A stretch of 64,000 nucleotides of DNA from positions 4,713,501 through 4,777,500 of the forward strand of contig NZ_JACHIV010000001.1 in assembly GCF_014203325.1 (NCBI RefSeq), in the 5' to 3' direction. Below are positions 27,377 to 33,637 of this stretch, piece by piece. Source of the DNA: Saccharopolyspora gloriosae (lineage in GTDB: Bacteria; Actinomycetota; Actinomycetes; Mycobacteriales; Pseudonocardiaceae). Both the position numbers and the translations under genes were made by a program. The notes beneath the pieces are model-generated. The model had not been told where the DNA came from. It was given only the letters and a program-made list of their open reading frames with translations, and searched no databases. The number at the start of each line of letters is the position of its first letter. Position 1 is the first letter of the stretch.

Positions 27377-28225
27377 ATGTCGCGCATGGCGAGCAATGCA
27401 GACACACCACGAGCTCGCGCACTCGGTGCGGAGCTTCGGCAAGCCCGGAGCCACAAGGGCATCAGCACGCGGAAGCTCGCCGAGCTGATCGGGCGCAGCG
27501 GCTCACACATCTCCCGATGGGAAACAGGCAAACTCGCGCCCACGGAAGCCGACACCGCGACAGTGCTCGCAGTCCTCGGAGTTCGCGGCTCCCATCGGGA
27601 ACGCTTGCTGGAACTGGCACGCGACGCATCAGATCCGAACTGGGTCGCACCCGGCGCCGACAAGCAGCTGGCCATGCTGATGGAGTACGAGCGCACCGCG
27701 AGCACGATCACCAACGTGGAACCGCTGATGGTTCCCGGTTTGTTGCAGACCTACCAGTACGCGCGCCACATCCTCTCGGCTTTCGGCGCACCCCGTGGCC
27801 AGGCCGAAACGAACGCGCACATGCGCATCGGCAGGCAACACGTGCTCACGGACGCCCCGCCGAAGAAGCTGATCGCCTTCATCGGCGAGTCGGCATTACG
27901 GTTCCCGCCATGCTCGCACGGCGTGATGATCGAACAACTTCAACGGCTTTCGCAGTCCGCACAGCGGGACACCGTGACGTTGCACGTCCTACCGCACGGC
28001 CTCGCGCTCGCGCCACTGCTGTGCGGCTCGTGGCTGCTGATCGAGTTTCCTCAAGCAAAGCCGGTGGTCCATCTGGAGCACTTCGGTTCGTCGACCACCT
28101 TGACCGACGGCAAAGCGGTGAACCAGTATCGGGATTCCGTTGCGCTGCTTCAAAAACACGCCATGAGCCCTGCCGAATCAGCGGACTTCATCAGCAAGTT
28201 GAGCAAGCAGAAGGAGAAGTCATGA
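27377..28225 (+). CDS. Scr1-type XRE regulator with DUF5753 domain
   Basis: 282-residue transcription factor; ATG 27386 (three codons later) is an alternative start. The N-terminal Cro/CI helix-turn-helix spans about residues 14-70 (LGAELRQARSHKGISTRKLAELIGRSGSHISRWETGKLAP). Residues about 95-275 form the DUF5753/Scr1 domain: VEPLMVPGLLQTYQYARHIL, FIGESALRF, HVLPHGLA and a terminal SVALLQKHAMSPAESADFI. In Streptomyces such regulators work in pairs with DUF397 proteins in developmental or antibiotic control. Its TGA overlaps the ATG of the DUF397 gene. Confidence 0.93.
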   Translation: MSRMASNADTPRARALGAELRQARSHKGISTRKLAELIGRSGSHISRWETGKLAPTEADTATVLAVLGVRGSHRERLLELARDASDPNWVAPGADKQLAMLMEYERTASTITNVEPLMVPGLLQTYQYARHILSAFGAPRGQAETNAHMRIGRQHVLTDAPPKKLIAFIGESALRFPPCSHGVMIEQLQRLSQSAQRDTVTLHVLPHGLALAPLLCGSWLLIEFPQAKPVVHLEHFGSSTTLTDGKAVNQYRDSVALLQKHAMSPAESADFISKLSKQKEKS

Positions 28226-28422
28226 ATGCCAGCACGGGGCACAACCACTGGCGGAAGTCGAGCTACAGCGGCGGACAGACCAACTGCGTCGAGGTCGGGC
28301 GGGCGCGCAGCGGTGCCGCTGTGCGGGACACGAAAGACCGTGCCGCCGGGTACTTCACGGCCACGCCCGACCAGTGGACCTCGTTCCTCGACGCGATCAA
28401 GTCCGGCCGCTACGACGGCTGA
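28222..28422 (+). CDS. DUF397 protein, partner of the Scr1-type regulator
   Basis: 66 residues with the family motif HWRKSSYSGGQTNCVEVGRA, then VRDTKDRAAGYFTATPDQWTSFLDAIKSGRYDG. Translation is coupled to the upstream regulator by an ATGA overlap and an AAGGAGAAG site in its end. By analogy with characterised Scr1/Scr2 and WhiJ-type pairs, it probably binds the regulator and modulates its DNA binding. It is the second DUF397 gene in this window; the first, at 13983, lacks a regulator. Confidence 0.92.
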   Translation: MNASTGHNHWRKSSYSGGQTNCVEVGRARSGAAVRDTKDRAAGYFTATPDQWTSFLDAIKSGRYDG

Positions 28423-29579: not shown

Positions 29580-29714
29580 CACCGCTCAGCCTGCGGATCA
29601 AGGAAGTTCACCGCACCCGATCTTGCGGATTCTTTCACTCGGCCACGCCTCCCGTAGCGCCATTCCGTTCGGCACCCTGGAATTCGATGCACTTCCCAGC
29701 GCAGGAGGCGAACG

Positions 29715-29831
29715 ATGGGCAGACGGGACGCCGACCGGGACGGGCAGGGCACCCCGCAACCGGAGAAGTGGGAGACCTGGGGCAGCGAGGACGACGGCAA
29801 CAAGCACGAAGGCGACGAGGGCAAGGAGTAG
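29715..29831 (+). CDS. Candidate RiPP precursor peptide, 38 residues, acidic (imiditide-like)
   Basis: Starting at an ATG with an excellent GCAGGAGG site 6-13 bases upstream, this frame encodes 38 residues: a basic start MGRRDADRDG, a central PEKWETWGSEDDGN and an acidic tail ending EGDEGKE. It has 12 Asp/Glu against 6 Arg/Lys, no Cys, and Asp-Gly pairs at residues 9-10 and 27-28, where aspartimide forms most easily. The stop lies 6 bases before the methyltransferase GTG, and that gene's AAGGAG site sits inside its last codons, so the two are coupled. Size, charge and partner match precursors of imiditides, in which a PIMT homologue methylates one Asp that then cyclises. A competing frame over the same DNA has no such ribosome site. 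Confidence 0.7.
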   Translation: MGRRDADRDGQGTPQPEKWETWGSEDDGNKHEGDEGKE

Positions 29832-29837
29832 GCCGTC

Positions 29838-30938
29838 GTGACCGCGTGGCGTGCCCGGCTCCCCGTGCCCAGGGAGGCGTTCGTTCCGCCGGTGATCTGG
29901 GACGACGACCCGGAATCGGACGGATTCGCTCCGGTCTCCCGCGAGAGCGAGCCCGCGCGGTGGCGTGCCTTGGTCGACGCCGACGAACCGGTCGTGACTC
30001 AAGTCGAAGACGGGCGGGACCACGACATCGCGCGAGCACCGACCAGCTCGTGCAGCAGGCCGTCGCTCGTCGCCGACATGCTCGACGCGCTGGAAGTGCG
30101 GCCAGGCCAACGGATTCTCGAAATCGGCAGCGGCACCGGGTGGAACGCGGCGCTGCTGCGCGACCGAGTCGGCTCGGCGGGTCACGTCACCACGGTCGAG
30201 ATCGACGCGGACGTGGCCGAGCAGGCCCGGCGCGCACTCGCCACGACCGGCCACGAAGCCGTGGTCGTCACCGCCGACGGCAGCGGCGGTCACCCGGCGG
30301 GAGCGCCGTACGACCGGGTGATCGCCACCGCCTCGGTGCGAGCCGTGCCGCAGGCGTGGATCGACCAGACCCGCAGCGGCGGACTGATCCTGACTCCGTG
30401 GGGCACCGACTACGGCGAAGATGCCTTGACACGGCTGGAAGTTCGCCCGGACGGCTCCGCGAGCGGGCGGTGCGGCACCCGCTTGGCGTTCATGCGGATG
30501 CGCGGGCAACGCCGCCACCACCTCGATCCCACCGACGCGGAACTGGCCGCCGCCGACCGGACCATCACCTCGCGGCGCGGTCCGGAACTGTTCGACATGG
30601 TGGAGTTCTCCCGAGCCGCCTTCACCATCGGCCTGCGCGTACCGCACTGCTACCTCACCGTCGACGATCGCGACGACGAGCACCGCGACGTCGAACTGCA
30701 CGACCTCCGCTCTCGGTCCTGGGCGAAAGTCGCCATGGTGCGCGGCGAGCACCCGTGGACCGTGCACCAGCTCGGCCCCCGTCACCTGTGGGACGAGGCC
30801 GACGCCGCGTACTCGTGGTGGCTGAGCAACGGCGAACCGGCCGCGGACCGCTACGGGCTGACCGTCGCACCCGACGGCTCGCACGCGGTGCGGCTGGACG
30901 AACCGGACGGCGAACACCGCTGGACGCTCGACACCTGA
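29838..30938 (+). CDS. PIMT-like O-methyltransferase, RiPP-associated type
   Basis: 366-residue SAM-dependent methyltransferase homologous to protein-L-isoaspartate O-methyltransferase. The class I SAM site reads RILEIGSGTGWNAALL, with VTTVEIDADVAEQARRAL as motif post I and DRVIATASVRAVPQAWIDQ around motifs II-III. The C-terminus carries SWWLSNGEPAADRYGLTV, matching the WxxxGxPxxxRFGxTV-like motif that marks PIMT homologues tailoring lanthipeptides, lasso peptides, graspetides and imiditides; ordinary repair PIMTs are shorter and lack it. No ATP-grasp, LanKC or lasso cyclase gene is nearby, so a stand-alone imiditide pathway is the best fit. It starts at a GTG directly after the acidic peptide gene. 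The methylated residue is not known. Confidence 0.85.
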   Translation: MTAWRARLPVPREAFVPPVIWDDDPESDGFAPVSRESEPARWRALVDADEPVVTQVEDGRDHDIARAPTSSCSRPSLVADMLDALEVRPGQRILEIGSGTGWNAALLRDRVGSAGHVTTVEIDADVAEQARRALATTGHEAVVVTADGSGGHPAGAPYDRVIATASVRAVPQAWIDQTRSGGLILTPWGTDYGEDALTRLEVRPDGSASGRCGTRLAFMRMRGQRRHHLDPTDAELAAADRTITSRRGPELFDMVEFSRAAFTIGLRVPHCYLTVDDRDDEHRDVELHDLRSRSWAKVAMVRGEHPWTVHQLGPRHLWDEADAAYSWWLSNGEPAADRYGLTVAPDGSHAVRLDEPDGEHRWTLDT

Positions 30939-31110: not shown

Positions 31111-31464
31111 ATGCCGGAAGAGCCGGAGCTGGTCGTTGTCGCCGAACGCGCACGCCGGTCCGAGGCCGGATCGCGTGCCGTGTTCAAAGCGCTCGCCCGG
31201 TCCTACCTCTACGCCCGCACCAGCGAGGACGCACCGCTGCTGCACGTCGCCGACCTCGGCGAACGTGGCCGGTGGGCGTCGGTGTTCAGCACCCGCGAAC
31301 GACTGGCCGCCACCATCGGCGAGTGCGACGCGATCGGGATGCCCGGCATGGACTTCCTCGAATTCGTGCCCACCGGAGTCGGCCTCGTCCTCGACCCCCG
31401 CGACCCGCACGCCCTGCCCTGCCGCCGCACCTGCTCGACCAGGCGGCCGCAGCCCTCGGCGTGA
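31111..31464 (+). CDS. SseB-domain protein of a type VII toxin locus
   Basis: 117 residues with the SseB N-terminal-like fold: SRAVFKALARSYLYARTSEDAPLLHVADLGERGRWASVFSTRERLA, then MPGMDFLEFVPTGVGLVLDP. In actinobacteria such small proteins commonly precede type VII-secreted polymorphic toxins. A GGAAAGGAGG site precedes the ATG. It is followed 10 bases later by a WXG/EspC-like gene on the same strand, so it is the first gene of the locus. A chaperone role is guesswork. Confidence 0.75.
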   Translation: MPEEPELVVVAERARRSEAGSRAVFKALARSYLYARTSEDAPLLHVADLGERGRWASVFSTRERLAATIGECDAIGMPGMDFLEFVPTGVGLVLDPRDPHALPCRRTCSTRRPQPSA

Positions 31465-31474
31465 CCAGATCGGC

Positions 31475-31780
31475 ATGAGCGACCACGGCGAAGTCGAAGT
31501 CATCCTGACCGCACTGATCAACGCCGCGACGGGCATCGACCAGGTCGTCGAGGACATGAGCACCGTCGGCGCCGAAGACATCTCCGACCTCGGCGACGGC
31601 ACCGACTACGGCCACGAACCGCTGACACCGGCCGTCCGCGAATTCGCCGACGCCTGGGGATACGGCCTGGACAGGCTGATGCGGGACGCCACCGGGCTGA
31701 GCGAATCCCTGCACGACTCCGCGCAGACCTACGCCGAGGCGGAGAACGTCAACATCGACCGGTTCGTGCAGGGACGGTGA
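31475..31780 (+). CDS. Small helical T7SS-associated (EspC/WXG-like) protein
   Basis: 101 residues, largely helical: EVEVILTALINAATGIDQVVEDM, then TPAVREFADAWGYGLDRLMRDATGLSESLHDSAQTYAEAE. The trailing AxxYxxAE pattern matches type VII secretion partners of the EspC/DUF2580 group. It ends two bases before the GTG of the frameshifted toxin gene. It probably forms a heterodimer with the N-terminal helical domain of that toxin and guides it to a type VII secretion machine encoded elsewhere. Confidence 0.75.
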   Translation: MSDHGEVEVILTALINAATGIDQVVEDMSTVGAEDISDLGDGTDYGHEPLTPAVREFADAWGYGLDRLMRDATGLSESLHDSAQTYAEAENVNIDRFVQGR

Positions 31781-31782
31781 GC

Positions 31783-32971
31783 GTGGCCGAGCTCGGAGAT
31801 ACCACCGACCCGCGCGCGCTCATCCCCGGCGATCCGGGAACGGGTTCGCGGCGAGATCGCGCTGTGCAATCGCTACGCAGCCGGACTCGGCCGCGCCGGG
31901 GAGGCACTGCGAACCCTCGACACCGCGGATTGGCGAGGTGAAGCCGCCGACGCGTTCCACGAAGCGTTCGACGGACACCCCGTCGACTGGCTCAAGGCGT
32001 CCGACGCGTTCCGCGACGCCGCCGACTCCCTCACCGGATACGTCGAAGTCCTCGAATGGGCGCAGCGCCAAGCCGTGGAGGCCGTCGCCCTGTGGCAGGA
32101 AGCCGACGCCGCGACGCAGCAGGCCCGAGCCGACCACGACACCGCGGTCGCCCGCGAGCAGAAGCGGTCCGCCGACGCTGGAACACCCGCCGCGCCGATC
32201 CCCTTCGCTGACCCCGGCGCCGAAAAGCGGGCCGCCGCTCAAGACCTGCTGCACCGCACTCGTGCACAACTCGCCGAGACCGGTGACCGCACCCGCACGA
32301 CGATCCTCGACCTCACCGCCGCAGCACCCGCCCGGCCGGGGTTCTGGGGTCAGGCGGGCCAGCTCGGTGCCGACTTCGCCGCCGGACTCGGCGACTGGGT
32401 CAGCGACCTCGGCGACATCCTCGGCAACATCCCCGCCACGCTCTCGGCGGCGGCCACCGATCCCACCGCGTTCGCGAAGCAACTGGTCTCCTGGGACCAG
32501 TTCCACACCAACCCCGCACGCTGGGCAGGACACGTCCTCCCGGACGCGGCGCTCACCCTCGTCGGCGGAGCCGGAGCGGCCAAGAAGGGCGGCAGCCTGC
32601 TCAAAGGCGTCACCGCGACGGGCCGCGCCAACCGCATCCTCGACAAGGCCAAGCACAACGGCAAAGGCATCACCGACCACGTCGCGAACAAGGGCGCGGA
32701 CATCGGGCGCAAGCCGGACCGCAACAAGAAGATGCCCATCCGCCTCGTCGACAACGTCGACGACCTCAACACCATTTGGAAAGACCTGTCCCGCGGCGGC
32801 CGCCCAACGGAATTGCCGAACTACAACGGGACGAGCGTAGAGATGCCGGACGGCAGCGTGATCTCCTACCGGGAGAAACCAGGACGCGGCCCCACTGGGA
32901 ACACCATCGACTTGGTGTCCCCCGAAGGCCGTAGCCTCAAGATTCACATCGACACACCCAAAGGGAACTGA
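31783..32971 (+). pseudogene. Type VII-secreted polymorphic toxin, frameshifted near 31831
   Basis: The GTG at 31783 starts VAELGDTTDPRALIPGDP, a standard N-terminus of actinobacterial T7SS toxins. That frame then fails and meets a TGA near 31941. The continuation is in the next frame: IRERVRGEIALCNRY, then LDTADWRGEAADAFHEAFDG (the WXG-like turn), a long helical region, and a C-terminal toxin-like segment RLVDNVDDLNTIWKDL with MPDGSVISYREKPG and a final KIHID. The longer frame has no start before 32075. Loss of a few bases between repeated GCGATCCGG words would explain the shift. The C-terminal region may be a BECR-type nuclease, but that is uncertain. Immunity-like genes follow directly. 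Confidence 0.7.
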
Positions 32972-33300
32972 TGAACCTATCAGCCGATTTCATCGAGGGC
33001 GTCCGTGAGGCGGGCGAAGACGACTGGGTTCAGTTCATCGACCTCGGACACCTGCTGATCGAAGAGAGCGGAACGAACGAACGCCTCATCGAGCGAGGTG
33101 TCGACGCGGCCGCCGAGCTGATCGAGCGAGGCATCGTCCGCCCCGGGCAGCTGACCGAGCACGGGTTCCAGCCATGGACGTGCAGCAAAAGCGAAGCGAT
33201 CGATCAAATCCGCGAGATGGCACAGGAAATAAGCAAGACGCAGAGCATCTTCCGGCCCGGAGACATCTGCTGGTTCGACGTCATCACGGATGAATCTTGA
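32971..33300 (+). CDS. Probable immunity protein 1
   Basis: 109-residue acidic protein starting at an ATG that overlaps the toxin's TGA. It contains DLGHLLIEESGTNERLIERG, GIVRPGQLTEHGFQPWT and a terminal FRPGDICWFDV. The next gene is a clear paralogue with the same block order and the PGDICWF ending. Position directly after a polymorphic toxin gene, small size and acidity all point to an immunity protein. I do not recognise a named immunity family. Confidence 0.75.
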   Translation: MNLSADFIEGVREAGEDDWVQFIDLGHLLIEESGTNERLIERGVDAAAELIERGIVRPGQLTEHGFQPWTCSKSEAIDQIREMAQEISKTQSIFRPGDICWFDVITDES

Positions 33301-33637
33301 AGTGACACTCCGGATTTCAGAACAACTCCTCGACTGGGTGCTCGAATCCGGGGAGTATGACCAGATTCAGCTCGCGGACCTCGCCTACTTCGTCAAGGAA
33401 GACACCGGGACCGACGAAGACCTCATCGGTCGCACCGTGGAGGCGACCATCTTGTTGATGCAGGACGGTGTCCTCACCCCCGGCGACATGGTCGACCACG
33501 AGTTCCGGCCGTGGACGGTCGACCTGCAGCAGGCCGAACGACGAATCCGCGAAGGAGCGGCGCACGTACGGCAAGAGACCGGGCGGTTCCTCCCCGGCGA
33601 CATCTGCTGGTTCAGGGCGCGCAGTTACGACGCTTGA
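33290..33637 (+). CDS. Probable immunity protein 2, paralogue of the preceding gene
   Basis: 115 residues overlapping the previous gene by 11 bases. It shares DLAYFVKEDTGTDEDLIGR, GVLTPGDMVDHEFRPWT and FLPGDICWF with its neighbour, showing tandem duplication and divergence. Acidic and soluble. Duplicated immunity genes often protect against variant toxins of kin, so the two copies may have different specificities. A strong terminator separates it from the convergent dehydrogenase operon. Confidence 0.75.
   Translation: MNLEVTLRISEQLLDWVLESGEYDQIQLADLAYFVKEDTGTDEDLIGRTVEATILLMQDGVLTPGDMVDHEFRPWTVDLQQAERRIREGAAHVRQETGRFLPGDICWFRARSYDA

Follow-up and report, generated by a model that had tools for sequence, protein, structure and literature searches.

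Two adjacent forward-strand genes form the locus, which lies in a 64,000-nucleotide stretch of Saccharopolyspora gloriosae DNA (the window) from a genome that is a single 6.83-Mb contig (Table 1). The first encodes a Cys-free peptide in which 12 residues are Asp or Glu and Asp-Gly pairs occur twice (D9-G10 and D27-G28); after a gap of 6 bases, the second encodes a PIMT-like methyltransferase. A sequence-only reading of the same DNA had listed the 38-codon gene, its ribosome site, the acidic residues, the Asp-Gly pairs, the lack of Cys and the short gap, together with a W...GxP motif at the C-terminus of the enzyme (WWLSNGEPAADRYGLTV, in which WLSNGEP matches WXXXGXP), and each detail that we checked was correct. 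Of 23 homologous loci, 21 likewise have GGAG, GAGG or AGGA ahead of the peptide start codon, and the hairpin behind the preceding gene could set peptide and enzyme apart as their own transcription unit.

Table 1 Features of the peptide and enzyme genes, in window coordinates.
Feature	Position	Strand	Evidence
Terminator-like hairpin between the preceding gene and the peptide gene	29611..29628	+	Weak; 1 in region versus 0.5 expected by chance
AGGAGG ribosome binding site of the peptide gene	29703..29708	+	Sequence read
38-aa acidic precursor peptide MGRRDADRDGQGTPQPEKWETWGSEDDGNKHEGDEGKE, net charge -6	29715..29831 (ATG 29715, stop ends 29831)	+	ORF, homologues
366-aa PIMT-like protein L-aspartyl O-methyltransferase (PAMT type) with C-terminal extra domain	29838..30938 (GTG start)	+	Pfam PCMT, TIGR04188, tree, model
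Conserved segment APTSSCSRPSLVADMLD within the enzyme	30036..30086	+	Alignment with relatives
Glycine-rich segment LEIGSGTGWNAA within the enzyme	30117..30152	+	Alignment
Acidic loop VDDRDDEHRD within the enzyme	30660..30689	+	Alignment
WLSNGEP (WXXXGXP motif), enzyme residues 328-334	30819..30839	+	Alignment

We surveyed 200 genomes of the same family, including S. gloriosae, for both genes. The peptide (E<1e-5) was present in 23 of them, its own genome counted, at 24 places. The full-length enzyme (E<1e-100) was present in 22, a cut-off that marks no natural gap, as the next match (G029, 2.9e-98) also has an upstream, more diverged peptide. A lack of any conserved upstream peptide in close enzyme homologues had been set beforehand as the outcome that would count against the pairing; all 22 full-length orthologues have the peptide. 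In the twenty-third peptide-bearing genome (G198), the enzyme is split into two overlapping pieces, and in G097 a second peptide precedes a truncated enzyme, about 5-6 kb away. A partial relative of the enzyme lies about 4 kb away in G076. One genome (G001, locus L110) has a full-length enzyme and a peptide frameshifted after residue 24, through either sequencing error or decay. Enzyme starts, as chosen by script, fall between -20 and +18 nt from the peptide stop in all 23 extracted loci. The peptide is likewise directly upstream in four of four full-length matches from Saccharopolyspora sp. HNM0986, S. spinosa, Actinopolyspora mzabensis and A. righensis, which overlap with the 200-genome set and are not independent of its counts. 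Among six genomes of the same genus, five carry both genes and one (G137) carries neither. Across 394 genomes drawn from the class, no enzyme other than that of S. gloriosae itself scored below 1e-100 (best other match, 1.4e-83).

Conservation extends over the whole peptide. Residues M1, G2, D5, R8, D9, G10, G12, Q15, D27 and H31 are invariant in the 22 intact copies (20 distinct), and Trp19 and Trp22 are each kept in 20 of the 22. The pair D9-G10 and residue D27 thus occur in every intact copy, giving the Cys-free sequence with a conserved Asp near Gly or Pro that is expected of class members. Free variation is confined to the last few residues, and neither a variable core nor a leader/core boundary is visible in the aligned intact peptides. 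Summed over 190 pairs from 20 intact loci, pN/pS came to 0.34 in the peptide and 0.44 in the enzyme, with similar pS (0.56 and 0.55) and a pN of 0.19 versus 0.25. Of the 188 pairs that could be scored, themselves not independent of one another, 154 had the lower ratio in the peptide. These values leave out G001 (frameshifted peptide), G198 (split enzyme) and the truncated G097 copy; with G198 counted, including the out-of-frame tail of its enzyme, they become 0.34 and 0.46. The peptide is therefore under whole-length purifying selection, stronger than that on the enzyme. The pair is real and more than a product of chance, given this codon-level selection and the recurrence of the peptide across the family.

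The enzyme has a Pfam PCMT match of 109 bits (4.9e-31), and segment LEIGSGTGWNAA is presumably its SAM-binding motif. Beyond the methyltransferase fold, a structure model of middling quality gives the C-terminal extra domain as strand-helices-4 strands-helix. Of the 21 clade enzymes, 17 carry an exact WXXXGXP motif and four do not; among type I or type II relatives, the motif is exact in 35 of 38. The acidic loop holds at least three Asp or Glu residues in 20 of the 21 clade enzymes. Compared over both domains, Thermotoga maritima PIMT (1DL5), described as an isoaspartate methyltransferase, gave an rmsd of 6.8, and the non-PIMT matches of a fold search were general methyltransferases.

These data bear on a plainer reading of the locus, in which the enzyme would be a PIMT with a repair or general role and the peptide gene a small, unrelated operon partner. 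As the best PCMT match in the genome (110 bits, with the next at 41 bits), the enzyme could be the only PIMT of the cell. However, it carries the C-terminal domain with WXXXGXP, its co-occurrence with the peptide is strict, and the absence of both genes from G137 indicates that it is not an essential housekeeping protein. Four PIMT repair-enzyme models also scored it at 88-107 bits, below their respective cut-offs (TIGR00080, 94 versus 159 bits; NF001453, 104 versus 188; NF010549, 107 versus 282; NF010550, 88 versus 359). When the peptide profile was run on the loci of 76 distant PIMT-like genes, mainly from Burkholderiales (L005-L080; a few have little upstream DNA), its best match had E 0.37 and none lay directly upstream of the enzyme. 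With no curated PIMT equivalog score reached, we rejected housekeeping PIMT as an assignment, and we consider a general PIMT beside an unrelated gene very improbable.

Phylogenetic placement sets the enzyme among pamtide methyltransferases, in line with the earlier proposal. In an 85-row tree, its clade (21 rows; support 99/84, compared with 94/47 in an earlier tree with fewer rows) nests within 28 rows that also include type I relatives (100/99), whereas the 17 graspetide-type enzymes lie on a separate side (100/99); seven type II pamtide enzymes are also included. Rows were picked by similarity to the enzyme and relatives were labelled heuristically, so the position within the pamtide group of PAMTs is not a blind result. 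The graspetide-type rows come from 20 loci fetched with TIGR04188, of which L300-L302 were left out for want of a visible ATP-grasp sequence; the upstream ATP-grasp sequence was flagged by a motif script in 12 of the 17; L295, L296, L299 and L293 (out of frame) were judged by eye, and L287 was assigned by score alone.

Graspetides that use a PIMT homologue (fuscimiditide, amycolimiditide; TIGR04188) share the enzyme superfamily and the expected chemistry, and the two genes might be an orphan tailoring pair from such a system, methylating the peptide once an ATP-grasp ligase from another locus has cyclised it. TIGR04188, the ATP-grasp-system methyltransferase model, is indeed the nearest NCBIfam model (303 bits, 2.8e-90), but the score is under its cut-off of 380 and the tree separates the enzyme from the graspetide-type clade. 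The genome does hold one ATP-grasp relative, a 74-bit match to the graspetide ligase model TIGR04187; it is far under the 350-bit cut-off, which nothing genome-wide exceeded, and lies 4.3 Mb from the pair along the contig (2.5 Mb if circular). Those graspetides have a ligase and a cross-linked substrate; no such ligase was found at the S. gloriosae locus. The lack of a nearby macrocyclase gene, noted from the sequence beforehand, was borne out among the genes checked: no RiPP cyclase was found by Pfam scanning of window genes from 23.3 to 37.3 kb, which took in small ORFs in part, and ORF clustering revealed no recurrent ligase or cyclase near 21 loci. With no ATP-grasp ligase found next to the pair, graspetide tailoring was rejected, and an orphan pair served by a distant ligase is highly unlikely.

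We read 109 more distant enzyme loci, in 107 of which a script picked an upstream short ORF. A heuristic type I-like filter (Cys-poor, ribosome site, early His, close upstream) passed 65 peptides, some of them doubtful (for example, L220) because starts and frames were picked by script; the remaining loci had tetracysteine (type II) peptides, ATP-grasp sequence ends or no clear peptide. Aligned with hhalign, the clade profile scored 20.3 against all 65 type I-like peptides, compared with 7.5 ± 1.8 (maximum 12.2) for 100 column shuffles; comparison with [KR]H[ED]-selected peptides would be biased. A single-profile HMM scan gave 12 matches at E<=10 in the 109 loci, five of them just upstream and the best elsewhere, and is by itself too weak to prove homology to the peptides of relatives, whereas the profile-profile comparison is clear. 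By eye, the G396 peptide (MGKHDDPSRWDGQKDKPPPPPTPNDGGSGGGKHERDDK) matches clade peptides at its N-terminus, DGQ, DGG and KHExDDK end. Another genome of the family, G179 (87% complete, 5% contaminated), has ten PAMT matches on nine contigs (L170, L171, L258-L261, L264, L266, L268), and eight of the nine with upstream DNA read have their own short charged peptide. In a related PAMT sub-group (L182, L183, L185, L270), the gene lies just 3' of the end of a protein with YGGDEF rather than a short peptide; we take this protein to be GGDEF-like, and it is a possible substrate of the adjoining PAMT.

A further alternative is that the peptide regulates or activates the methyltransferase as a small subunit, and that the real substrate of the enzyme is another protein. 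Whole-length conservation without a visible leader/core boundary and the strict pairing would suit such a role, and some related PAMTs adjoin FHA-domain proteins that are thought to be their substrates (PMC10787088). Against it stand the three invariant Asp positions and the profile likeness to type I precursors, among which SpaA and NmaA have been tested and do act as substrates. We see only a slim chance that the peptide is a subunit.

Among known systems, the pair most resembles type I pamtides, or imiditides, exemplified by SpaA-SpaM of Streptomyces sparsogenes and NmaA-NmaM of Nonomuraea maritima. The likeness covers two genes with no cyclase; a PIMT homologue with a C-terminal domain and WXXXGXP; a precursor placed directly before the PAMT with no other RiPP-class primary enzyme; and a Cys-free peptide of about 40 residues with a conserved Asp beside Gly and conserved charged ends (SpaA and NmaA being compared by description). 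Type II pamtides (cysimiditides) have a related PAMT but a tetracysteine zinc-motif precursor, and this assignment was rejected for the Cys-free S. gloriosae peptide, which lacks CXXCXGXG...CXXCXGXG. Membership of the imiditide class, as first proposed from the sequence, is thus supported by the upstream peptide, the two-gene layout, the C-terminal WXXXGXP domain and the enzyme tree, and the pair is well supported as part of a type I pamtide/imiditide sub-clade with members in Saccharopolyspora, Actinopolyspora and further genera. Clade peptides (mean length 37) are rich in Gly (14.6%), Asp (21.2%) and Lys (12.3%), as type I precursors are described to be, but not in Pro (4.6%), whereas published type I precursors are about 45 residues long with 16.8% Pro and 10.2% Asp (PMC10787088). 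The clade further differs from published type I in Trp19 and Trp22, in whole-length purifying selection and in a net charge of -1 to -9, negative in all 22 intact peptides.

The two genes very probably constitute a type I pamtide (imiditide) cassette with Asp methylation of the peptide. SpaM and NmaM carry out methylation and aspartimidylation on linear peptides (PMC10787088; PMC13001092), and from this analogy we infer that the enzyme modifies its own neighbouring peptide. The adjacent PAMT would bind the ribosomally made linear peptide, which probably docks on the C-terminal domain, and would methylate one Asp at its side-chain carboxylate in a SAM-dependent step. The backbone amide of the next residue would then expel methanol to give an aspartimide (net -18 Da), which would slowly open to isoAsp or Asp, with re-methylation possible.

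Two residues are candidates for the modified Asp. We lean slightly towards D27 (in D27-G28-N29-K30-H31), at a little better than an even chance. The peptides of three relatives contain just one Asp, within SPDGG; in L189 and L201 it occupies the equivalent position, ahead of G-R-H, and L205 ends differently. In addition, NmaA can lose its first 20 residues, but removal of the last 10 is not tolerated (PMC13001092). Against D27, the next residue is Gln or Glu in five of 22 copies, which is less apt for ring closure. In another single-Asp relative (L213) the Asp is elsewhere. D9 is the target with a probability somewhat short of even: Gly follows it in all 22 copies, and DG is kept there in most of a sister clade that is without D27. 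Replacement of an acidic loop in NmaM greatly lowered modification (PMC13001092), and the VDDRDDEHRD loop, which may correspond to it, might face the conserved K30-H31. Because the peptide and the enzyme C-terminal domain (mean charge -8.6 in the clade) are both net acidic, overall opposite charge cannot explain recognition, and only local basic residues (R3/R4/R8 and K30-H31) could meet the loop.

Charge also bears on function. An acidic linear precursor had been taken from the outset as the imiditide norm; a 2026 review instead describes imiditides as strongly positive and infers membrane action from that charge (PMC13001092), yet negative peptides are common among the type I-like set, with 36 of the 65 net negative, nine neutral and 20 positive (heuristic filter; His counted as neutral). 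Membrane action through positive charge misfits the present clade, as its peptides are net acidic. An acidic clade that spans many genera of one family, with selection above that on its enzyme, argues for a different mode of action in at least some pamtides. As a speculative and on balance unlikely proposal, the pamtide here might be a conserved intracellular, acidic and leaderless Asp/aspartimide/isoAsp switch rather than an exported membrane-active product, preserved under strong purifying selection, maintained through the methyltransferase encoded beside it and possibly tied to XRE-DUF5753/DUF397 regulators. The same review sees the greater challenge in tying aspartimidylated RiPPs to function (PMC13001092). 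This compact two-gene system (38 + 366 aa), naturally lost in a close relative, suits knock-out and site-mapping. Among the titles listed by searches of the aspartimide and RiPP literature, none concerned the clade, and Saccharopolyspora, Pseudonocardia and Actinopolyspora are unnamed in the main text of PMC10787088 and PMC13001092; the 1,183-precursor dataset (PMC10787088) may already list it. The pair again illustrates how readily short precursors are overlooked.

The genes around the pair encode a BrkB-type membrane protein, a periplasmic binding protein, DUF5996 and XRE-DUF5753 plus DUF397 proteins (the last two at 27377-28422), an ArsR-type regulator and a muconolactone-isomerase-like protein, followed by T7SS-type genes and a 2-oxoacid dehydrogenase complex. 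The XRE-DUF5753 regulator recurs most often, lying no more than 8 kb from the pair in 10 of the 21 loci, a weak link given the 44 DUF5753 matches in the S. gloriosae genome (about 0.1 expected per 16 kb) and the synteny shared by several loci. Clustering of called ORFs gave no recurrent exporter or protease near the 21 loci, which leaves exporter absence unproven because the ORF caller missed the enzyme in five of them and non-recurring neighbours were annotated in the window only. Downstream of the pair, a T7SS-type cassette (31388-33637) encodes an EspC-like protein (PF10824) and a T7SS_signal protein (PF21725), the likely start (31777) and bulk (32075-32971) of the latter being in different frames. 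After this protein the cassette has two paralogues of about 110 residues, with GDICWF near their ends and no Pfam match, that look like duplicated immunity genes.
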